Shown here piece after piece: positions 1,624-30,561 of a stretch of DNA of 64,000 bases. Made by a program: the position numbers and the translations under genes. The notes below the pieces were generated by a model. It was not told the origin of the DNA, searched no databases, and worked only from the letters and a program-made list of their open reading frames with translations. Every line of letters starts with the position of its first letter. Position 1 is the first letter of the stretch. The stretch is taken from contig JAFTRQ010000177.1 of NCBI GenBank assembly GCA_017462125.1, forward strand, positions 1 through 64,000, written 5' to 3'. This DNA is from Clostridia bacterium (GTDB taxonomy: Bacteria > Bacillota_A > Clostridia > Oscillospirales > CAG-272).

Positions 1624-2466
1624 ATGTTGGACAAAATATATCTTGAAATCACAAACGTTTGCAATTTGAATTGCACGTTTTGTCATAAGACCTCGCGCAA
1701 AAAGAAGTTTATGAGCGAAAACGAATTCGAGCTTTCAACCGACAAGCTACGGCACCAAACAAAGTATTTATACTTCCATCTGATGGGTGAGCCAACGCTT
1801 CATCCACTTTTGCCGACGTTCATAGCCATTGCAAAAGAAAAAGGGTTTATCCCTATGCTGACAACAAACGGTTCTCTTCTCTCTGATAAAGGGAGCTCCC
1901 TGCTCGCATGCCTTCCGTACAAGATCAGCATTTCACTCCACGCTCCCGAAGCTAACCCAACCTTTGCTGATCCATTATATCTTGACAATTGTATCAACTT
2001 TGCCAAAAATGCTGCCGAGAAGGGCTGTATAATTGCGCTGAGGCTTTGGAATCTCGGAACCGACACAGATAACTCATCTATCATCAAAAGGCTTCACGAC
2101 GAATTCTCGGGCGAATGGAAACCTATCCGCGGAGGAAGCAGTCTGAAATTGTCCGACAATCTGTATTTGGAATGGGGGCAACACTTTGAATGGCCCGATC
2201 CCAATCTGCTTGAAGCAGACCCCGATTCAGATTCATTCTGTTACGGTCTTCGCGATCATTGCGCGGTGCTCGTTGACGGCACGGTGATTCCCTGCTGTCT
2301 TGATGCTGATGGAAATCTTTCTCTTGGTAACCTATTCGAATCAAATCTTGAAGAGATTCTTTCTACACCTCGTGCAAAAGCAATATATGATGGATTTACA
2401 AAACGTCGCGCCGTGGAATCATTTTGTAGAAAATGTGGCTTTGCTAAGCGTTTTTCAAAAATATAG
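1624..2466 (+). CDS. Radical SAM/SPASM domain protein
   Basis: This 280-residue protein carries the radical SAM cluster motif C-X3-C-X2-C (Cys13, Cys17, Cys20, in CNLNCTFC), which binds a 4Fe-4S cluster and S-adenosylmethionine. The 'FHLMGEPTLHP' block is the usual SAM-binding GGEP-like strand. A C-terminal Cys-rich region (from about residue 205: CYGLRDHC, IPCC, FCRKCGF) looks like a SPASM or twitch domain that would hold one or two auxiliary Fe-S clusters. The Shine-Dalgarno AAAGGA lies 8 nt before the ATG. Proteins of this compact type are common in Clostridia and Bacteroidia, and their substrate is not established. Nearby peptide-like tails could suggest peptide modification, but I see no convincing precursor gene. 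Confidence 0.85.
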   Translation: MLDKIYLEITNVCNLNCTFCHKTSRKKKFMSENEFELSTDKLRHQTKYLYFHLMGEPTLHPLLPTFIAIAKEKGFIPMLTTNGSLLSDKGSSLLACLPYKISISLHAPEANPTFADPLYLDNCINFAKNAAEKGCIIALRLWNLGTDTDNSSIIKRLHDEFSGEWKPIRGGSSLKLSDNLYLEWGQHFEWPDPNLLEADPDSDSFCYGLRDHCAVLVDGTVIPCCLDADGNLSLGNLFESNLEEILSTPRAKAIYDGFTKRRAVESFCRKCGFAKRFSKI

Positions 2467-2755
2467 AGGCTCAAATCAAGGATTTGAGCCTCAGACTGTC
2501 GAAAAAGCTGTTATACCGCAAGGAGGAAAAGAAAGAGCAAGAGCATTTTTAAAATTGCAATATATAAAAATGAATCCCAAGGCACTCATCGAGATTGCCT
2601 TGGGATTTCTTGCTTTTTCCGTTCTTACACTCTGCCGTACCCTTGTACGGCGACGAATATAAGAACGAAAAATAAACCTACCTTTTTCGAAATCTCACAG
2701 CGTGTCGAGACTTCTCGACACGCTGTGGCTCAAATCAAAGATTTGAGCCATTTTT
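2466..2755 (+). repeat. Modular intergenic hairpin element, copy A
   Basis: This gene-free 290 bp consists of ordered hairpins. They are an end hairpin at 2466-2492 (12-bp stem); a conserved linker (about 2494-2522); an internal 12-bp hairpin at 2573-2607 with the loop CTCATCGAGAT; a two-part stem at 2620-2667 (CGTTCTTA paired with TAAGAACG, enclosing a CCGTAC hairpin); a hairpin at 2697-2726; and a second end hairpin at 2726-2750 followed by T5. The two end hairpins share the same stem sequence (GGCTCAAATC). An inverted second copy lies at 26989-27277. The outer hairpin plus T run probably also acts as the terminator of the radical SAM gene. Confidence 0.8.
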
Positions 2756-3167
2756 ATAGCTTTTGATTCAATCGCTTACCCGTTATCTTGACAGCAAAGT
2801 AAACAGAAAACCAAATTATTAAATATGTGACTATAAATACAAGTGAAAAAATAGCCAACACAATCATCTCAAACGGGATCCACGAATTTATAATATAGCA
2901 GCCTGTGTACGCAACATATTGTGTTATAAAATGTACGAATAACGATTTTGCAATTGGCCAATGCTCGATTTGATTGAACACACTCGATCCTGCCTGCACA
3001 AAGGCAAGTAGGTAAGTAGATACGATCGCTAGCAATATTTGAAATCCGCTAATTTCAAATGAATCAAGCGTTACCGACAGAATTGCGAACACAATTCCTA
3101 CAATGATAGGCCCAAAACCACCGAAAATAAGACCTCTGTGTAAAAATTCTTTCAAATAACGGTTCAT
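2754..3167 (-). CDS. DUF3021 family membrane protein
   Basis: The protein has 137 residues with four predicted membrane segments at about residues 12-33, 42-62, 75-98 and 104-127. It has no signal peptide. Size, topology and position directly after a LytTR regulator are typical of DUF3021 proteins. These are encoded with stand-alone LytTR regulators in Firmicutes and often hold the regulator in check at the membrane. It starts one base after the LytTR stop codon, so the two genes are translationally coupled. The role of this particular protein is inferred from that gene pairing. Confidence 0.75.
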   Translation of the reverse strand: MNRYLKEFLHRGLIFGGFGPIIVGIVFAILSVTLDSFEISGFQILLAIVSTYLLAFVQAGSSVFNQIEHWPIAKSLFVHFITQYVAYTGCYIINSWIPFEMIVLAIFSLVFIVTYLIIWFSVYFAVKITGKRLNQKL

Positions 3168-3767: not shown

Positions 3768-5351
3768 TTACTTTTTCTTCTTAAGCACGAAGAAGTATAC
3801 AGCTACGAGAGCGATTACTACAACAATACTTACGATGAGTACCCAGAGCCAAGCAAGAGACTTAGCGGGGATCTCGCCGGGAGCATCGATGATCTCTGTA
3901 CAAACTGTGCACTCCTTACCAGCGGTAGAACCGGGCTCGGAATAAGTAGGATCAACAGCGGGGATGTCCTTAAGGGTGTGGCCTGTGGGCTGAACAACCT
4001 GAGGAGCAACAAGAACTACGTTACAAACGGAGCACTTTGTACCCTCTGTGGAGCCTGCAGCTGTGCATGATGCAGCAACGGCAGCGATCTTCTCTTCTGT
4101 GTGTGCTACGGGCTGAACAACCTCAGGAGCAACAAGAACTACGTTACAAACGGAGCACTTTGTACCCTCTGTGGAGCCTGCCTTTGTGCAAGTAGCAGCT
4201 ACAGCAGCGATCTTCTCTTCTGTATGAGCTACGGGCTGAACAACCTCGGGAGCCTTGAGTACAACCTCACAAACGGAGCACTTTGTACCCTCTGTGGAGC
4301 CCGCCTTTGTGCAAGTAGCAGCTACAGCAGCGATCTTTTCTTCGGTGTGAGCTGCGGGCTGAACTACTTCAGGAGCCTTCAGAACAACTTCACAAACGGA
4401 GCACTTTGTACCCTCTGTGGAGCCTGCCTTTGTGCAAGTAGCAGCTACAGCAGCGATCTTTTCTTCGGTGTGACCCTTTGCATCAACAACCTCCTGAGCT
4501 ACAAGAACAGCGTTGCAGTTCTTGCACTTGGAGCCCTCGGTAAGACCGATGGATGTGCAAGTGGGTTCGATAGCAGCAACAACCTCTGCCTCATGTGCAA
4601 GAGCATCTACAGCCTCGGGAGCTTCAAGAACTTCGTCACAAACGGAGCACTTTTTACCCTCGGTTGCACCTGCTACGCCACAAGTGGGAGCAACTGCTGC
4701 AATAACTTCTTCAGTGTGACCGAGAGCTTCTACTTCATCATACTTCTTGATAGCTGTGCAGCCTGCATCGCTACAAGGAATGTATGTGTAACCTGCTTCG
4801 GTACATGTGGGCTCAACGATTTCAGCATTTTCAGCCTTGAAGGTGTGAGCATCAGAGCCGGAGGACTCAACCTTTGTGTTAGAGGCATTCAGAGCCTTAA
4901 CGTTGTTAGCAACGATTGTTACCTTATCGCCGGTGAAGGAATCCTTAACCTTGAAGGAAAGAGTAACAAGTGTACCAACCTTTGTAACATCCTCGGTAGC
5001 CATAACGTCAGTCATAACGAGAAGCTTACCCTCAAGAGGAGTTACAGCGTAAATAGTGTAAATATCGCCATTGACAACGTCTCCGGGTACAAACTCAAGA
5101 GCATCTGTATCATATACAACGTCGAGAGTAAAGTAACATACACCGGGGTTGTTGTTAATTACTACATCAATCTCTAAGGTGTCACCTGCGGTAACGAGAA
5201 CGTTACCCTCGACATCCACAGTAGCGTCCTTAGCCGCTACTGCGATGTCGAAAGTTGCACTTGCAGTGTCAGCCGCGGAAACGGCTACAACTGCCATAGA
5301 GAGCATCATCATAGCAACCAAAAGCGATACAAGTATTCCTTTAAGTTGCAT
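3768..5351 (-). CDS. Membrane-anchored protein with an N-terminal cohesin-like domain and Cys-X2-Cys repeats
   Basis: This protein has 527 residues. An N-terminal signal peptide ends near AVSAA (about residue 26). A cohesin-like domain follows at about residues 30-170: 'GDTLEIDVVINNN', 'YDTDALEFVPGDV' and a 'GTLVTLSFKVKD' strand. Eight repeats of about 41 residues come next, each with a 'PTCT..G.T.G.KCSVC' core. The eighth repeat has lost its first Cys. A C-terminal transmembrane helix (about residues 499-523) ends in a KKKK tail. There is no LPXTG sorting motif, so it should be held in the membrane and face outward. It begins 23 bp after the stop of the dockerin-bearing protein with a GAGGTG site, so both are on one transcript. 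I infer that it anchors a dockerin partner. The function of the repeats is unknown. Confidence 0.75.
   Translation of the reverse strand: MQLKGILVSLLVAMMMLSMAVVAVSAADTASATFDIAVAAKDATVDVEGNVLVTAGDTLEIDVVINNNPGVCYFTLDVVYDTDALEFVPGDVVNGDIYTIYAVTPLEGKLLVMTDVMATEDVTKVGTLVTLSFKVKDSFTGDKVTIVANNVKALNASNTKVESSGSDAHTFKAENAEIVEPTCTEAGYTYIPCSDAGCTAIKKYDEVEALGHTEEVIAAVAPTCGVAGATEGKKCSVCDEVLEAPEAVDALAHEAEVVAAIEPTCTSIGLTEGSKCKNCNAVLVAQEVVDAKGHTEEKIAAVAATCTKAGSTEGTKCSVCEVVLKAPEVVQPAAHTEEKIAAVAATCTKAGSTEGTKCSVCEVVLKAPEVVQPVAHTEEKIAAVAATCTKAGSTEGTKCSVCNVVLVAPEVVQPVAHTEEKIAAVAASCTAAGSTEGTKCSVCNVVLVAPQVVQPTGHTLKDIPAVDPTYSEPGSTAGKECTVCTEIIDAPGEIPAKSLAWLWVLIVSIVVVIALVAVYFFVLKKKK
4021..4512 (-). repeat. Tandem 123-bp coding repeats
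   Basis: Four units with an exact 123-bp period (starting 4021, 4144, 4267 and 4390) encode the 41-residue HTEEKIAAVAATCT-type repeats of the cohesin-like protein. Near identity at DNA level points to recent duplication. Copy number may vary between strains. Confidence 0.85.
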
Positions 5352-13434: not shown

Positions 13435-13445
13435 AACTGATCCCG

Positions 13446-13482
13446 CTCCGAAGATATCCCGATACGGTATCTTCGGAGTTTT
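13446..13482 (+). terminator. Terminator of the zinc importer operon
   Basis: An 11-bp perfect stem (CTCCGAAGATA at 13446-13456 with 13468-13478) is followed by TTTT. It lies directly after the lipoprotein stop codon. Confidence 0.85.
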
Positions 13483-13600
13483 CACAAGTTGTTATTCTAT
13501 CTTTTGTTTATTTTTCTATTTGTTGTTTCTTTTTTGCGAGCGTTTAAAGGATTCTCACTTTATCTAAATAAAATTTTCAAAAGAAATTTCCGAATAAGTA

Positions 13601-22518: not shown

Positions 22519-25500
22519 ATGAAAAAAACAACGTTATCCCTGATTGCCCTTTTGCTGACAGCGACTATGCTGGTGGGAATCTTCGCCTCCTGCGGAGACA
22601 ACCTTAGTGTGGATGATGACACATCAGCCTCTACCGAAGCCGTTGTTGACAGCACCGACACAGGCGATTCGGAAAACAAATCCGACGAAACCGAAACACA
22701 GACGCCTGCACCCTCCATCAGTGATATAAAAAACGGGCTTCTGATTGAGAATGCAAATAAGCTTGCTAATGGCGTAAACGCATACTTCACCGATGGTAAG
22801 CGTACCGATTTTGCGCTGGTAAACCAAAATATGAGCCTTGAGTATGCATTGGCAAATCACAAGGATCAGCTGGTTACCTCTCTTGTGAGCGCTGAAGGAA
22901 ACACCTATCTGCAGAGCACGATGGACGTTTTTGTGAAAATGAAGAGCGGCCACACCTTCTACGCCTCCGATTCCACAAAGCACGCCACGGCAAACCTCTA
23001 TCGCTTCGGTTATTATATGTACGAGGCAAGATTTGAGGAGCAGGTATTCGTAGGCGATGTCGCGGTGGAGGATTCCCTTTCCTTCAATTTAAGGTCCATC
23101 ACCCGAAATCAAGCCAAGCCCTCTTATAATGACGACGGCTCCCTTCACCTTGAGGTTGGAGGCTCCGACCCCTACATCTCCTTCAAGGGTGTTGACTTTG
23201 CAGCATCCGATTATAACTTCGTGCAATTCACCATGAAGGCAAACGCTACGAAGCCCACAAACCTTGTCATCTATCTGAAGGCAGGCTCAAAGACAGGCTT
23301 TACGGAAAGTCAGGCAAAGTATTTCAACTTCTACAACGACGGCGAATACCACACCTACACGATTCCGATCTCCGAGGTCGACGACTATACGGGACAGGTC
23401 ACAGGATTGCGCTTTGACCTCAGCGGTGAAAAGGGCAGCAGCTTTGATATTTCCGATTTCAAGGTCATCAAGGGCGACGACGGCGGAACACCCGCAAACC
23501 TTAGCTTGAACCGCTCCTTCTTCGTCTATTCGGATAAGATGCACCACTATCTGCAGGTCGCAACCGGAGACGTTGCAACCACCGATATTGACAGCATCGG
23601 TCTTGAAACCAAGATCTCTGCCGACACGGTAGCAAAGCTGATCGTCAAGGACAAAAACGGAACGCACACCACGCTTGACGGAGTAGACTTTGCAAGCGTT
23701 GAATACGTTGGCTTTGACATCAAGGATGCAGGTATCTTCGGATACATTCTCCCTGCCGACAATTCGGGCGGAACGCTAACGGTAACGCTTGCAGACGGTG
23801 TCTATACCGTGATTCAATCCCGAGCACCCGAAAACGGAACAATTGAGCCTTCCGGCATTTATGATGATGAAAAAAAGCGCATCATTGCAAGTGTGCCGCT
23901 GAACGGAAACGACTTCTTTATGGGTCAGCGCATATATACCGACAGCAACCACGGTTTCGACACCTTCCTGCTTGAGGCAGAGCTTGAAAGACATCCTCTG
24001 ACAGCAGAAAACTTTATCGTAGATACGCAAAATTCTACCGATGCAAGCTTCGCCGGATACGATGCGCTTCGAGGCATCTACACCTTCAAGGTTGCAGGCG
24101 ATGGCTTCAACGGCCCCTATTACAGATATCCCAACAAGCATTACAACATCAAGTTCACCGTCAAGGGTGACAATAATGACCGTAGCCTCTATATTATGGC
24201 AGCATCGGAGACAGGTTGTCTTGAATCAGCAGCGCTGTTGGACGACAACAATATGATGATCCCGATCCCGATCGAGGTAGGTAAAAACTTCAGCGAATCC
24301 TCGGGCGAGCGCAACCGTTGGAACATTGACGACAAGAAATACGGCGAAGCAATCATTCCCATGCTGATCAAGGCCGGAAGTGAAGACAGCTATAACTTCA
24401 TCAATCTGTATCAGAATTGGGGACAGTACCCCTTGAAGCAGGTCTCCTGGATCCAATTCTACGCACCCTATTATCATCTTTCCACCGGCGTTACCGAAAC
24501 AAACTGTATCGTTCCCTATTATTCCTGTAAAAACGCTCGCGGATTGAATACGCTTCCCGACCATAGAACCATGTCGGCTCCCTTCTGGTCCGATCAGCCT
24601 CAGCATAACAGCTGCGGTTCTCATAAATGGTTGGTTTACACCGACGCCAACGGCGTTTACAGTGCAAGCGAGAATGCGCGAAACACCATCGACTCCTACG
24701 GTCCCACCTATGCCGACGTCACGATGGATTACATCTCCGATGATGGCAACATCAAGGTAACCTACACCCACACAGAATTTCCACAGACCGACGAGAACCG
24801 CGCGTATTACGAAATGAAATACGAGGTTCTCGGTGACGTCAGCTTTACCGACTTCAGCCGTGACTTCCATTTCTACAGAGTATCCTCTAACGATCCCACG
24901 GGTGTTTATCAGAATGTCGGTTATCTGAATGAAAACAATCAAAGCGTGATCGTCAACGCCGCGGTTGACAGCGAATCCAACAAATACGTTCTCGGCAACG
25001 AATGTCCTTACTTCTCTTATTTTAATATGAAGGGTTGGACCAGCACGAGCCAGCAGGGATACGCAAACCTCTCCTTCTTAGTCTACAATTCCGAATTCGT
25101 TATTGGCGGTCAAAAGGCAACTCCCAACTTTGCCATTGTTAACGATAAGAGCAGCGTTCGCATCTCCCTCGATCTCGGCGAGGTCACCTTGAAAGAAGGT
25201 GACAGCTTCGTTATCAACGCGATCGTTCTTCCTTGGGGCTCGCAGGAATCGGTTTACGACTCCAAGGAGTTTGCAGGCGACCAGAACGTTCGTGACGTTA
25301 GAGAGGATACCTTACTCAATCCCCTCACCCCCAAAGCGGTCGAAAACTGCGAGGTTCTCGACAGTGTATTCGTTCCCAAGCTGAAAACTACCAATGGCAA
25401 AAACGCGACCTTCACTCTGACAGGCGGCGAAAACAACGTAGCAGTACGTATTTACGGCTTTGATAAGGTAACCGTTCCCGTCATCGAAGAGCTTGTAGAC

Positions 25501-26973
25501 GGCAAGTGGGTAGAATACAAGGTCAGCTCGGCATATGCGCCCGACATTCAGGGTAACGCACATTATTACGACGGCTATTGCGTTCATTACGATGGCGACG
25601 GCACCTTCTCTTACTCCTTCATAGTTACAATGGACAACAAGGATGCAGACGGCAGAACCTTCCGCATCGCCGCTGAGGAGGACTTCAAGGGCTGGCCCGA
25701 GGAGCTTCCCGCAATTGATAAGGTGGAAGATGAGCTTCCCCTCAACGTTTACGTTGATGCAGAAGCGATGTACAACACGGCAATGATGTCCTCGGGACCT
25801 CAGTTCGACGGAGTCGTACTGAGCGCGGACAAGAGCTACGTCAGCTTTGGAGCTAAGGGTTTGACCGAATCCTATTTCTCCGCATATCCCGGCGGAACGG
25901 TTGCTACCGGTCAGTATCTGGCGATCAAATACAGACTCCCCGAAAGCAATCCTGACGATATTACGGTATTCGAGGTCTTTACCAGCACGACAAATAGCGG
26001 TGCAAAGGGAGAGGATTGCTTCTATATCGGCTCCGCTCTCATCAACGACGGCGAATGGCACATCATCGTAGCTGACCTTGCATCCTGGGGTAAGCCTTCC
26101 TTCAAGGCGGCAGACGACGGCACGTACAAAGCAAATTATGCCCGTCTCGATCCCTTTTACAAAACAGCTATAGGTAACAGCTTCCAATTCGCATTCTTCG
26201 GCTTGTCCGACAATCTTGAGGACATTTACGCATTGGCATCCGATCTCGATGCGATCCAATACGTCGCACACTTCGATGGCAAGACAACGGTGACCTACGT
26301 TGATCCTGCGACCGGAGAGTCGCTGGAAACACCCACAGAGGAAACCGAAGAAGTCAACACCGAAGAAACAAGCTCGGCAACCGACGAGCCTGTCAAGGAA
26401 AACGCAACGTCGTCTCACGAGCAATTCACGGTCTATGTCAACGCATCGGACATCGTCACCCACCTCAATGCTCCCGGAAACGGACACGGCGGTGAGGAAG
26501 AATTGATGGAAGGCGGCGAATACGTCCGAATTCACTACTGTACAGATCAATCCAAGAACGAAAATTACAGGCGCGAAAGTTATTTTTACATTTATGAAGC
26601 TGACGGCAGCCTTGCAACAGGTCAAATGCTTGTAATCAAATACAGAACCTACGAGCAAATCGGAAGCATACAGATTTATGCAAGCACGCAAAAGGCTTCC
26701 GCGTCCGATCCGGGCGGCAGCTGTACGCTGAAAGCTCCTGCAGAGGGTAGCAATGGCTTGTTTATCGGAGACGGCGAGTGGCACACGGTCGTCATCGATC
26801 TCTCCGAGTTGATTGCATCCTATACGGCAGACAGCAATGGCCAATATGCCGCTAAGCACGTCCGTATCGACCTGTTCAACTTTAACAGTCCTCTCGAAGA
26901 CGGAAAAACAGCATACGTTGATATCGCTTATATCGGTCTGACAGATGATGCGTCACATATCGCGAATGAATAA
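22519..26973 (+). CDS. Giant lipoprotein, paralogue 1 of 4, with two C-terminal beta-domains
   Basis: This 1484-residue protein has a lipoprotein signal with lipobox FASC and the lipidated Cys at residue 25. A Ser/Thr/Glu/Asp-rich spacer (about 26-70) precedes a large conserved core (about 75-1065). The core is shared with the next three genes and includes 'YQNWGQYPLKQ', 'YYHLSTGVTETNC' and 'LPDHRTMSAP'. Two copies of an approximately 180-residue beta-rich domain follow (about 1068-1250 and 1301-1480), split by a Thr/Glu-rich linker. Each has 'DGEWH..V.DL' and an ending that in the other paralogues reads 'YIDVAYIGMCD'. These look like carbohydrate-binding-type modules, an inference from pattern only. 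AAAGGA precedes the ATG. I do not recognise the core and assign no enzyme activity. Confidence 0.75.
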   Translation: MKKTTLSLIALLLTATMLVGIFASCGDNLSVDDDTSASTEAVVDSTDTGDSENKSDETETQTPAPSISDIKNGLLIENANKLANGVNAYFTDGKRTDFALVNQNMSLEYALANHKDQLVTSLVSAEGNTYLQSTMDVFVKMKSGHTFYASDSTKHATANLYRFGYYMYEARFEEQVFVGDVAVEDSLSFNLRSITRNQAKPSYNDDGSLHLEVGGSDPYISFKGVDFAASDYNFVQFTMKANATKPTNLVIYLKAGSKTGFTESQAKYFNFYNDGEYHTYTIPISEVDDYTGQVTGLRFDLSGEKGSSFDISDFKVIKGDDGGTPANLSLNRSFFVYSDKMHHYLQVATGDVATTDIDSIGLETKISADTVAKLIVKDKNGTHTTLDGVDFASVEYVGFDIKDAGIFGYILPADNSGGTLTVTLADGVYTVIQSRAPENGTIEPSGIYDDEKKRIIASVPLNGNDFFMGQRIYTDSNHGFDTFLLEAELERHPLTAENFIVDTQNSTDASFAGYDALRGIYTFKVAGDGFNGPYYRYPNKHYNIKFTVKGDNNDRSLYIMAASETGCLESAALLDDNNMMIPIPIEVGKNFSESSGERNRWNIDDKKYGEAIIPMLIKAGSEDSYNFINLYQNWGQYPLKQVSWIQFYAPYYHLSTGVTETNCIVPYYSCKNARGLNTLPDHRTMSAPFWSDQPQHNSCGSHKWLVYTDANGVYSASENARNTIDSYGPTYADVTMDYISDDGNIKVTYTHTEFPQTDENRAYYEMKYEVLGDVSFTDFSRDFHFYRVSSNDPTGVYQNVGYLNENNQSVIVNAAVDSESNKYVLGNECPYFSYFNMKGWTSTSQQGYANLSFLVYNSEFVIGGQKATPNFAIVNDKSSVRISLDLGEVTLKEGDSFVINAIVLPWGSQESVYDSKEFAGDQNVRDVREDTLLNPLTPKAVENCEVLDSVFVPKLKTTNGKNATFTLTGGENNVAVRIYGFDKVTVPVIEELVDGKWVEYKVSSAYAPDIQGNAHYYDGYCVHYDGDGTFSYSFIVTMDNKDADGRTFRIAAEEDFKGWPEELPAIDKVEDELPLNVYVDAEAMYNTAMMSSGPQFDGVVLSADKSYVSFGAKGLTESYFSAYPGGTVATGQYLAIKYRLPESNPDDITVFEVFTSTTNSGAKGEDCFYIGSALINDGEWHIIVADLASWGKPSFKAADDGTYKANYARLDPFYKTAIGNSFQFAFFGLSDNLEDIYALASDLDAIQYVAHFDGKTTVTYVDPATGESLETPTEETEEVNTEETSSATDEPVKENATSSHEQFTVYVNASDIVTHLNAPGNGHGGEEELMEGGEYVRIHYCTDQSKNENYRRESYFYIYEADGSLATGQMLVIKYRTYEQIGSIQIYASTQKASASDPGGSCTLKAPAEGSNGLFIGDGEWHTVVIDLSELIASYTADSNGQYAAKHVRIDLFNFNSPLEDGKTAYVDIAYIGLTDDASHIANE

Positions 26974-26988
26974 TTGAAGCTTCTACAA

Positions 26989-27277
26989 GATCCGCCCCGC
27001 CAAGCGGGGCGGATCAGCGTGTCGAGATTTTCTCGACACGCTGGCAGAGGTCGAAAAAGGTAGGTATATTTTTCGTTCTTACATTCGTAGCCGTACAGGA
27101 GTACGGCAGAGTGTAAGAACGGAAAAAGCAAGTAAGCACAAGACGTTTTCGATGAGCGTCTTGTGCTTTTCTCTTTTTACGGTTTCAATTCTGAATACTA
27201 TTTTTTCTCTTTTTCACTTGCGGTATAACAGCTTTTTCGACAGTATGATCCGCCCCGCTTAGCGGGGCGGATCATAT
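26989..27277 (-). repeat. Modular intergenic hairpin element, copy B
   Basis: The inverted copy of the element at 2466-2755. Read on the minus strand, it has an end hairpin at 27273-27247, a linker that matches copy A over about 28 bases, and an internal hairpin at 27068-27034 relative to 27100 (exactly 27168-27134) with loop CTCATCGAAAA. Next come the CGTTCTTACA/TGTAAGAACG stem (27121-27074), the CGTGTCGAGA hairpin (27042-27016) and an end hairpin at 27015-26989. Both end hairpins have the stem GATCCGCCCCGC. These stems and the internal stem share no sequence with copy A, yet pairing length and loop are kept. Confidence 0.8.
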
Positions 27278-27420: not shown

Positions 27421-30400
27421 ATGAAAAGAAAAAGTGTATCCATACTGTCCTTACTGTTGGCAATGCTGATGTTGATCGGCATGTTTACTGCCTGTAACAC
27501 GACCGACACTCCTTCGGACAACACCGATAGCGACAGCTCCTCTTCTCAGACCGAGTTATCTACAGAGTCAGACTCCGCTACCGAAGAAGAGACCGAAGAG
27601 GACACCACCCCCAAGCTTGAGGGTGCCAACGCACAGCTGATTGAAAATGCGGAACGTCTTGCAAACGGCGTACAAAGCTATTACGCTGATCCCGATCGTA
27701 CAAGCTACACCATCGAGAACAAGAATATGTCTCTCGATTACGTGCTGACAGGCTCGGAGAATCAGATGGTCACCGCGATCAAAAACACCAAGGGTGAGTC
27801 CTATATTGAGGACACCATGGATGTTTTCGTTAAAATGAAGGACGGAACCACTTATTACGCTTCCGAAACCGACGAGCAAACTCGCGTCAATATCTACCGT
27901 TACGGTTATTACTATTACGACGTACACCTGTTAGAGCAGGATTTCGAAAAAGGCACCACTGTAGAGAAGGAGACCGACATCCCGATCACAGATTTCACAT
28001 CCTACAAGCACACGACCAAGCCTAAATTCGAAAACGGAGAATTGAAGGTCACCATTACCAATCAGGTGGATCCCCAGGTCTATGCTGCCACAAGCTTCAA
28101 GGCAAATGAGTATAACAATCTTCAGGTCACCGTTAAAAGCGATACTGTGGTTACCTTGACCGTCTATATCGTAGCAGGCGCACAGAAGTATCACAACAAC
28201 AAGCAAAGCACCGTAGTCGAAATAATCAACGACGGCGAGTGGCATACCGTCAACATCCCGCTGAGCGAAGCCAATTTCCCTGACTATACAGGCGACGTTA
28301 CAAGCATCAGACTCGACTTGGGCGGTGTTGTTGGTACTGACTTTTATTTGAAGGACGTCAAGATACAGAAAGTGAGTCACGACGCTGTTCCCTTAACGCT
28401 TGACCGTACCTTCCACACCTTCCCCGACAAGCTTCATCAGGAGCTTCACATCGTTGCTTATGAAGACACCTCCGATATTGAGGCGATTGGTATGACCACA
28501 AGCATCAAGGCTGACACGGTCGACAAACTGATAGTCAAAGACAAAAACGGTCTGCATCAGAGTCTTGACAGTGTAGATTGGGCAAGCGCGGAGTATGTCG
28601 GATTCGATATCAAAAACGTTGGAATCTTTGGATACATTCTTCCCTATGACAACGAAAGCGGAGCCATTGAGGTAACGCTTGAAGGTGGAAACTACTTGAT
28701 CACGCAAACAGACTGTCCCGAGGGCGGTGTAATCAAAGCGCCCATCCAAAACACATTCAACGATTTCCGTATGGGACACAGACTCTACACCGACAGCTCT
28801 CATAATTTTGAAAAATTCTTAAATGAAGCCTACTGTGAAAGAAATCCTCTTGATGAAGACAACATCGTGATCGATGCTTCCAAAATGAAGAGAGGCGCAA
28901 AATTCAAGGAATATGACGCCCTGCGCGGTGTATATCATTTCACCATTAAGGGTGCCTCCGGCTTCAGCGATCCTTACTACAATAACCAGAACCTCCACTA
29001 CAACGCATCCTTCAGCATTACCGGTGACGATCATGACAGAATGATCTATATTATGACCTATACGTCCTCCGGATGTCTCGAATGTGCGGTGCTGTTGGAC
29101 GAAAACAATATGATGCTTCCCGTTCCGCTTGAGGTCAGTAAAAACTTCAGCGAGCAAGAGGAGCCTATCTACAACTGCGGTGATGCAACCTATGGCGAAA
29201 CCTTCTTCCCTATGGTCATCAAGGCAGGAGAACGAAACTACATAACCGTCCTGAACTTCTATCAGAATTGGGGTAACTTCCCGCTCAAGCAGCTTTCCTC
29301 CATTGGCTATTATATGCCTTATTATCACCTTTCCACGGGTGTTACAGAAACCAACTGTATCTCTAACTGGTATAACAGAGGAAAGAACCTTTGGACTCTC
29401 CCCGACCACAGATCTATGTCCATGCCCGCATCCAGCGATCTGAAGAATATGTATCCGGCATACGGCAATCAGCCTCAACGTCCCAATGCAGGTTATCATT
29501 ACTTCCTGCAGTATACAGATGCGGCGGGAAATTATATCGCATCCGATTATCTGGACAACATCATCAGCTCTGCGGGTCCTACATACGCTGATATTACAAT
29601 GAACTACCTCTCGGACGACGGAAAGATCAAGGTATCCTACCGCCATATAGAGATGCCTCAGGTGGATGAAAACAGAACCTACTATGAGATAAAATATGAG
29701 GTTCTTGACACCGTCGAGATCGCCAACTTTATGAAGGACTTCTCATTCTACACTATGACGGGCTTTGTAAATTACACCAAGGTAGGCTATCTTGATGAAA
29801 ACAACGAGAGCAAGATCAAAAGCGTCAATCCCAAGGATAAGCCCCTTCCCTACGTTCTTGGCGACAGCTGTCCTTACTTCTCGCTCTTCCACCTTCCCTC
29901 CACAAGTGTATATACCAACCTTGCATTCTTAATCTATGATTCCGAATTCATTATCGGTGGCAAGCAAGTCGACGAAAACTTCGTGATTATCGACCAAAAT
30001 TACGCAGTCCGTCTCTCGCTGAACATCGACGGCAAGGTCACCCTGCAGAAGGGCGACAGCTTTACCATCAATGCGATCATCCTGCCTTGGGGAGGCGGTT
30101 GGGTTCTTGATGACGGTACTCAATATCACAACACAACCGATAAAAACGTTCAGTTGGTTCGCGAAAATACGCTTCTCAATCCCTTTAAGGCAACGCCCGT
30201 TGAAAATTGCGAGGCTGTTGAAAGTGTATTCCTGCCTCGTGTCAGATCTACTGACGGTAAGAGCGCAACCTTCACGCTTTCGGGCGGCTATGATTGCGAT
30301 CCCTCCTCTGCGGATACGATCAATATGACCGTTCGCGTAGACGGATTCAATTCGCTGACCAAGCTGAAGCTTGAAGAGCTTATCGATGGAAAATGGGTAA

Positions 30401-30561
30401 GCATTGAGCTGTCCTCGGTAAATTCTCCCGACACCAAGGGAAACACCGCGGATTACGACGGTTATGCAGTACATTATGACGGCGATGGAACCTATAGCTA
30501 TTCCTTCGTCATGACAATTACCGACGGCACACCCAGAACCGTCAGAGTAAGCGCAGAATAA
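27421..30561 (+). CDS. Giant lipoprotein, paralogue 2 of 4, core only
   Basis: This 1046-residue protein has lipobox FTAC with Cys at residue 25, the same position as in the other three paralogues. An acidic Ser/Thr-rich spacer is followed by the shared core ('FYQNWGNFPLKQ', 'YYHLSTGVTETNC', 'LPDHRSMSMP', 'MNYLSDDGKIKVSYRH'). It stops where the core ends ('TPRTVRVSAE') and lacks the two C-terminal beta-domains of its neighbours. It may represent the minimal form, with the modules being accessory binding parts. AAAGGA precedes the ATG. Function is unknown. Confidence 0.75.
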   Translation: MKRKSVSILSLLLAMLMLIGMFTACNTTDTPSDNTDSDSSSSQTELSTESDSATEEETEEDTTPKLEGANAQLIENAERLANGVQSYYADPDRTSYTIENKNMSLDYVLTGSENQMVTAIKNTKGESYIEDTMDVFVKMKDGTTYYASETDEQTRVNIYRYGYYYYDVHLLEQDFEKGTTVEKETDIPITDFTSYKHTTKPKFENGELKVTITNQVDPQVYAATSFKANEYNNLQVTVKSDTVVTLTVYIVAGAQKYHNNKQSTVVEIINDGEWHTVNIPLSEANFPDYTGDVTSIRLDLGGVVGTDFYLKDVKIQKVSHDAVPLTLDRTFHTFPDKLHQELHIVAYEDTSDIEAIGMTTSIKADTVDKLIVKDKNGLHQSLDSVDWASAEYVGFDIKNVGIFGYILPYDNESGAIEVTLEGGNYLITQTDCPEGGVIKAPIQNTFNDFRMGHRLYTDSSHNFEKFLNEAYCERNPLDEDNIVIDASKMKRGAKFKEYDALRGVYHFTIKGASGFSDPYYNNQNLHYNASFSITGDDHDRMIYIMTYTSSGCLECAVLLDENNMMLPVPLEVSKNFSEQEEPIYNCGDATYGETFFPMVIKAGERNYITVLNFYQNWGNFPLKQLSSIGYYMPYYHLSTGVTETNCISNWYNRGKNLWTLPDHRSMSMPASSDLKNMYPAYGNQPQRPNAGYHYFLQYTDAAGNYIASDYLDNIISSAGPTYADITMNYLSDDGKIKVSYRHIEMPQVDENRTYYEIKYEVLDTVEIANFMKDFSFYTMTGFVNYTKVGYLDENNESKIKSVNPKDKPLPYVLGDSCPYFSLFHLPSTSVYTNLAFLIYDSEFIIGGKQVDENFVIIDQNYAVRLSLNIDGKVTLQKGDSFTINAIILPWGGGWVLDDGTQYHNTTDKNVQLVRENTLLNPFKATPVENCEAVESVFLPRVRSTDGKSATFTLSGGYDCDPSSADTINMTVRVDGFNSLTKLKLEELIDGKWVSIELSSVNSPDTKGNTADYDGYAVHYDGDGTYSYSFVMTITDGTPRTVRVSAE

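Follow-up and report, generated by a model that had tools for sequence, protein, structure and literature searches.

What kind of element keeps the order of its hairpins while the stems of some of them become unrelated? The question is raised by two copies of a hairpin-rich sequence in the window (the whole stretch of 64,000 nucleotides of clostridial DNA analysed here), for which a sequence-only reading had offered two explanations: a mobile element that duplicates the terminator hairpins it enters, or a structured element with covarying stems. The results support both, each for another part of the element. The reading preferred here, with a probability of about four in five, is that the copies are non-autonomous MITE-like elements of ~236 bp, probably moved by IS1182-type transposases, which duplicate the palindrome at their target and carry a folded core.

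The two copies and their parts

The element proper, which lies between the end palindromes, extends over about 2491-2726 on the plus strand (copy A, 236 bp, with boundaries placed by comparison of copies) and about 27014-27248 on the minus strand (copy B, 235 bp). The covariance model introduced below matches the first at 2493-2696 with 208 bits and the second at 27045-27246 with 204 bits, and its scan of the window gives no third full-strength copy (a weak partial match at 13445-13529 on the minus strand, with 19.9 bits, E 0.0039 and model positions 32-116, is possibly due to chance). Neither 2491-2726 nor 27014-27248 contains an ORF of at least 100 amino acids. The copies are in opposite orientation and have in common a 28-base linker after the first end hairpin, the CTTGCTTTTTCCGTTCTTAC region and the order of the hairpins, all of which had been correctly noticed from the letters; their cores are 79.9% identical. 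Two sites in the window match the probe TCGAAAAAGCTGTTATACCGC, which gives 0 matches in 100 shuffles even when up to 3 mismatches are allowed. Folding z scores, for which the end hairpins were included in the fold, are −13.6 for copy A and −16.1 for copy B, and no shuffle was equally stable.

Copy A is bounded by GGCTCAAATC-AAG-GATTTGAGCC at 2468-2490 on the left and by GGCTCAAATC-AAA-GATTTGAGCC at 2727-2749, followed by ATTTTTATAG, on the right. In the orientation of the element, copy B has TCCGCCCCGC-TAA-GCGGGGCGGA at 27249-27271 on its left and TCCGCCCCGC-TTG-GCGGGGCGGA at 26991-27013 on its right. As had been claimed, both end hairpins of a copy have the same stem; the 3-nt loops are not equal within a copy (AAG and AAA in A, TAA and TTG in B). 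The further claim, that stems are completely different between the copies, stands for the end stems, which are unrelated. It does not stand for the internal stem, since AATCCCAAGGCA of copy A and AAGCACAAGACG of copy B agree at 8 of 12 positions, with all 4 differences compensated on the opposite arm.

From left to right the element consists of the terminal repeat TCAGACTGTCGAAAAAG (2491-2507, plus strand), which contains the 5′ arm of a helix P1; a helix P2 around an A-rich spacer and a hairpin P3; the long hairpin P4; the 3′ arm of P1; and a fixed right-end hairpin, CAGCGTGTCGAGA-CT-TCTCGACACGCTG, at 2698-2725 (plus strand). The sequence of this last hairpin is present too in copy B and many relatives and absent from three loci (L005, L010, L012), and its outer arm (TCAGnnTGTCGA) resembles the left terminal repeat. 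The alternative that CAGCGTGTCGAGA is a separate repeat was rejected: in the places inspected in genome G059 it sits at the right end of the element and is therefore counted as part of it.

A gene for a radical SAM/SPASM protein (1624-2466, plus strand) precedes copy A, its stop codon adjoining the left palindrome, and a convergent gene for a DUF3021 protein (2754-3167, minus strand) follows. Elsewhere in the window a minus-strand gene at 3771-5351 has a cohesin domain (PF00963), and the long neighbouring proteins tested (22519-26973 and 27421-30561) have no Pfam match.

End hairpins and their sites

The relationship between the two end hairpins was examined in an alignment of 97 core matches, drawn from 95 sources and leaving aside a few of the retrieved loci. 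Of these matches, 91 have at least 45 bases of flank on the left and at least 90 on the right; the other 6 were dropped. The same palindrome is present on both sides in 58 of the 91, as a direct copy in 50, inverted in 5, with one tie and two unclear, and in the 56 classified pairs the palindromic part is 14-40 bp long (median 28). When left and right flanks were drawn from different copies, the same score was reached in only 8 of 1082 draws. The palindromes of copy A are a direct repeat with 1 mismatch in 23. Those of copy B, which differ from a reverse complement at 1 position and from a direct copy at 2, do not decide between the two orientations, and copy B is one of the five counted as closer to the reverse complement (the others are L022, L068, L129 and L153). 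As judged from these flanks, the end hairpins belong to the target site, a terminator-like palindrome, and not to the element. That the stems match within a copy and differ between copies is what doubling of the target palindrome explains, and so the proposal of a mobile element that duplicates terminator hairpins holds for this part.

Related genomes show what such a site looks like when the element is absent. The radical SAM gene to the left of copy A has a homologue in 40 of 146 relatives of G430, and the best 8 of these loci (L207-L214) were inspected; BLAST finds the element in 0 of the 8. At four of them (L210-L213) the convergent DUF3021 gene, 65-67% identical, adjoins, with one hairpin between the genes and the element absent. 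L207 has a hairpin, with DUF3021 about 500 bases off, and the other three (L208, L209, L214) are without DUF3021. The hairpins at L210-L213 are unlike that of the window in sequence, so these are orthologous empty sites and not same-species ones; single-hairpin sites of this kind had been suggested as something to look for.

These sites bear on whether the element might instead be a resident, immobile gene for a structured RNA, whose end hairpins would be its own variable, covarying stems. Strong covariation in P2-P4 and the stable folding of the copies are what such a gene would give. However, the end palindromes resemble the terminators of their sites and, in 58 of 91 cases, match within and not between copies, orthologous sites have one such hairpin and no element, and several copies lie at separate loci of one genome (the cores compared in G059 and G104 are 91-98% identical). 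A resident gene is accordingly disfavoured and very improbable.

Duplication does not account for every copy. The 33 of 91 without a duplicated palindrome, which count against it, include, as sorted by eye, seemingly truncated copies, others whose ends are of another type, and some with both ends present and differing palindromes on the left and right (L017, L079, L123 and L126 are examples). Recombination between copies is one possibility for the last. The 5 inverted cases among the 58 also count against duplication because simple fill-in gives none; they perhaps reflect a later inversion within the palindrome, or recombination. A separate observation is a tandem of two elements in G104 (L104, 89-552), which have a common middle palindrome, the same one that lies on either side of a further G104 copy (L103); recombination may have produced it, or an element may have inserted into a palindrome that was already duplicated.

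The palindromes resemble terminators. Copy A has two terminator-like sites (0.5 are expected in shuffles), one formed by the left palindrome on the minus strand (2492-2466), where its T-rich tail then lies, and one by the right palindrome on the plus strand (2725-2751). Given these strands, each terminator-like site is at the far end for a polymerase entering from the other side. Averaged over the 58 copies there are 4.8 A among the 8 bases before the left palindrome and 4.5 T among the 8 after the right one; the palindrome of copy B has no clear T-tract. Of the 75 copies that have neighbouring ORFs of at least 80 amino acids on either side, 43 have them convergent, 28 codirectional and 4 divergent (the remaining 22 of the 97 copies, with none on at least one side, were left out, and the 4 divergent cases have overlapping distances and may involve false ORFs). 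The element shows no bias in its orientation to genes, with 67 neighbours on its left and 65 on its right pointing at it.

Probable mobilisation by IS1182-type transposases and a proposed model of insertion

Genome G059, which has many copies of the element, also has an IS with a PF13751 transposase and the ends TCAGTCTGTCGAAAAA and TCAGACTGTCGAAAAAG. The left end of the element is identical to one of these ends in 17 of 17 bases, and its right outer end (TCAGnnTGTCGA) is a partial match. The transposase gene of this IS (L166) is split in two frames. With one piece of the transposase as query, 25 of 293 relatives matched, G059 included, and the ends of 13 IS loci were inspected. Duplicated palindromes flank the IS at five (L167, L168, L169, L170 and L173, with an inverted centre, AAGATT/AATCTT, at L170), the palindromes differ per side at three (L166, L171, L176), and five give no clear case (L172, L177, L179, L182, L194). 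The five between duplicated palindromes have intact transposase genes that belong to the IS1182 family by NF033551 (386-431 bits, the cut-off being 270). They are like the element in their ends (TCAGnCTGTCGAAAAA or TCAGnCTGTCAAAnAAG, and TCAGnCCGTCAAA for L169) and in their duplicated palindrome flanks; unlike it they carry a transposase gene, and on inspection of their ends no P1-P4 core was apparent.

Among element-bearing genomes a PF13751 transposase turned up in 2 of 8 and in 4 of 20, so that a partner with matching ends is known in one genome only, G059; draft genomes often lose ISs. At the PF13751 loci L160-L163 (in G176, G074, G324 and G098) there are no TCAGACTGTC ends. To go by the ends held in common, the element is most likely moved in trans by DDE transposases of the IS1182 family. 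G059 has in addition, at L064 (1250-2680), an IS1182-type IS seemingly inside a hairpin like the internal hairpin of an element with ends of the other type (GGGACTGTCACATTTAG); the right part of that element is missing.

Targeting of stem-loops by this transposase family is known. IS1272, an IS1182 family member, is described as picking stem-loops, often terminators, and removing them without duplication (PMC4923244, PMC5678879). The present element is like the staphylococcal IS1272, TnSha1 and TnSha2, as far as these accounts describe them, in its association with an IS1182-type transposase (here via its IS relatives) and in having a stem-loop target without sequence specificity, and unlike them in that 58 of 91 copies have the palindrome doubled over its whole length and not removed. 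Could the target hairpin nevertheless be deleted here also, with the end hairpins travelling as part of the element? The transposase family and the kind of target are the same, and copies with differing left and right palindromes fit such replacement better than they fit duplication. On the other hand, the end hairpins vary from copy to copy and so are not carried along by the element, and the majority are doubled; replacement is thus a very unlikely account of this family.

Duplication, to return to the preferred reading, fits an alternative pathway in the model of PMC5678879, in which joining at the 5′ feet leads to duplication of the whole stem-loop and which appears there as a possibility only. 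In outline the target would be a palindrome, typically a bidirectional terminator behind a gene or between convergent genes, which extrudes as a cruciform. The 3′ ends of the element would then be joined to the hairpins at their 5′ feet, and gap repair over the length of the palindrome would double the whole stem-loop. T-rich tails, where present, would remain outside, and a polymerase from either side would cross the element and terminate only at the far palindrome, which would leave each gene with a terminator and make the element part of the 3′-UTR. If this readthrough model is true, the transposon stays harmless simply, by doubling the terminator it has entered. What the family provides is dozens of natural insertions in which a structure serves as the target and the duplication matches it in length, an outcome that was only a possibility to the authors of the IS1272 work in what they set out.

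Other short repeats offer partial parallels. MITEs of ISMac2, an IS1182 member in Methanosarcina acetivorans, are likewise short gene-less derivatives (160 and 169 bp), in another organism and, in what is listed for them, with no palindrome-long duplication (PMC3852290). The bcr repeats of the Bacillus cereus group are also interspersed and often transcribed within UTRs, bcr1-3 being MITE-like and others having conserved RNA structure; they differ in sequence and host, and their description, as far as it goes, does not have them targeting terminator palindromes (PMC3446304). MITEs, palindrome targeting by IS1182 members and structured repeats are already known kinds. For the combination of a gene-less element, duplication of a whole terminator and a covarying core that Rfam 15 lacks, no description was found in the open-licence literature. 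ISfinder reportedly lists long duplications for some IS1182 members, and duplication as such may on that account not be new. Bacterial group IIC introns are similar in inserting beside terminators and are far longer than the element; they are not known to duplicate their target or to have terminal inverted repeats. Rfam scans of the window and of copy A gave no intron match.

The folded core, its strand and its distribution

The structure of the core was derived from a MAFFT alignment of 12 copies, which favours that structure when it is assessed on the same alignment: 96.7% of the pair cells are paired, and 18 of the 50 pairs are changed on both sides. Of 500 shuffles, none came up to the observed value in four of five measures, and 4 did so in the fifth, the number of pair types. 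With the partner shifted by 1-3 columns, no more than 46.8% remained paired. In copy A, with positions on the plus strand, P2 pairs GCAAG (2518-2522) with CTTGC (2609-2613), the whole spanning 2518-2613, and has two-sided changes in 4 of 7 pairs and 98.8% of cells paired. P3 (2573-2607) is the 12-bp stem AATCCCAAGGCA with an 11-nt loop already seen in the first inspection, and all its cells are paired, with two-sided changes in 6 of 10 modelled pairs. P4 (2614-2672) has them in 8 of 24 pairs and bears a near-invariant apex, CTCTGCCGTACCCTTGTACGGCGACGA, at 2630-2656 (CTCTGCCGTACC..GTACGGCGACGA in the window copies), whose profile was drawn from 83 of the 97 copies. P1, with its 3′ arm CTTTTTCGA at 2682-2690, has 94.4% of cells paired and two-sided changes in no pair. 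As modelled, the core P1-P4 is a strongly covarying structure with no Rfam 15 match above threshold, and it is to these internal hairpins that the second of the original explanations applies. Candidate pseudoknots between loops and ends gave no consistent picture in the few copies compared by eye.

The two strands of the core are not equivalent. Among the 83 of 97 copies that match the apex once, P4 outside its apex has 133 A-C mismatches and 38 G-U pairs on the strand as written. Folding favours the opposite strand for 78 of the 83 P4 hairpins and 89 of the 97 cores, a comparison that includes the conserved apex. Counted by genome the lean is 17 against 5 with 1 tie (n=23, p 0.017). By helix the A-C to G-U ratio is 36:18 in P1, a lean in the direction of that in P4, even in P3 (6:6) and opposite in P2 (6:17). 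Control hairpins, taken from every second copy, have the same lean more weakly (41:24 for left palindromes, 26:15 for right-end hairpins). This asymmetry is moderate support for a function of copy A's minus strand, most probably as RNA.

Two other views of the asymmetry have to be weighed. The structure could be a DNA feature, a cruciform or protein-binding site used in transposition, and not an RNA at all. That the element has no orientation preference to genes would suit this, as would the lack of a promoter-like site at copy A, the reversed lean of P2 and the like lean of the control hairpins. Against it are the excess in P4, with its better-folding opposite strand and the count by genome, and the conservation of sequence in the P3 loop and P4 apex while the stems change. 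For the core, though not for the element as a whole, a DNA feature is possible, on the less favoured side of even. Movement as a single strand by an HUH transposase like that of IS200/IS605 would likewise explain a strand-specific structure, and strong hairpins and the A-C excess on one P4 strand would be in keeping with it. However, the element has long target duplications, and inverted terminal repeats in common with a DDE-type IS, and HUH elements of the IS200/IS605 type are not known to have inverted terminal repeats or to duplicate their target. Such movement is very unlikely indeed.

A similar core also occurs between other ends. In G040 and G424 it lies between ends such as GGGGCTGTCGCATTTAG (L014/L091, L018, L093, L150, L156), and these elements of the other end type (ends such as GGGGCTGTCGCATTT) are without doubled palindromes; a P2/P4 core with the same apex between TCAGACTGTC ends has its palindromes doubled. 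Palindrome duplication thus follows the type of end, and the core may be a module in its own right. It is a tentative, rather doubtful extension of the modelled structure that the core might be an independent portable RNA gene in 3′-UTRs, taken up by several transposon types, whose apex (UCGUCGGCGUAC-NNNN-GUACGGUAGAG on the opposite strand) would bind a host or transposition protein. In a viral contig of IMG/VR (L206, 400-1000) the P4 apex is present together with a P2-like helix, flanked by what may be a third type of end; it may be a phage-borne element or host contamination.

Further copies exist in relatives, and their stems keep pairing; the absence of either had been named at the start as what would refute the observation. 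An 18-base linker probe hit 8 genome loci, one of them a true copy (L005, from a Clostridia bin of roe deer caecum) and the other 7 unrelated sequence. BLAST of copy A against 146 genomes around that of L005 matched 8, including its own, several over 27-30 bases only. Of 394 genomes from one clostridial order, 44 are matched at E<=0.001, and 26 at E<=1e-7, by a covariance model built from 12 copies; the training copies came partly from G059, G104 and G022, which count among the 44, and the weakest matches may be chance. There are several copies per genome, and as no more than 6 candidates were scored per genome the copy numbers are lower bounds. In a phylum-wide sample the apex pattern was present in 1 of 398 genomes, G059 itself, 14 times. 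The exact pattern misses variants, so this result only suggests that the family is restricted to one order of Clostridia. Copy A had no match in plasmids or phages, nor the left linker in viral contigs.

Rfam 15 gave no element match at or above any family's gathering score in the window and sub-threshold matches only over copy A. Among 13 related loci the one element match was a sub-threshold sroD on L018 (26.2 of 50 bits, E 0.47). Identity with the 'skipping-rope' RNA was dropped, as a literature search brought up only unrelated texts and Rfam no match above threshold. The core is therefore a strongly covarying structure absent from Rfam 15 and spread in one order of Clostridia, whose function is now testable. 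Near one copy of the element (L016, 1177-1372) lie two matches to Gut-1 RNA (RF01706) in opposite orientation, one above and one below the gathering score.
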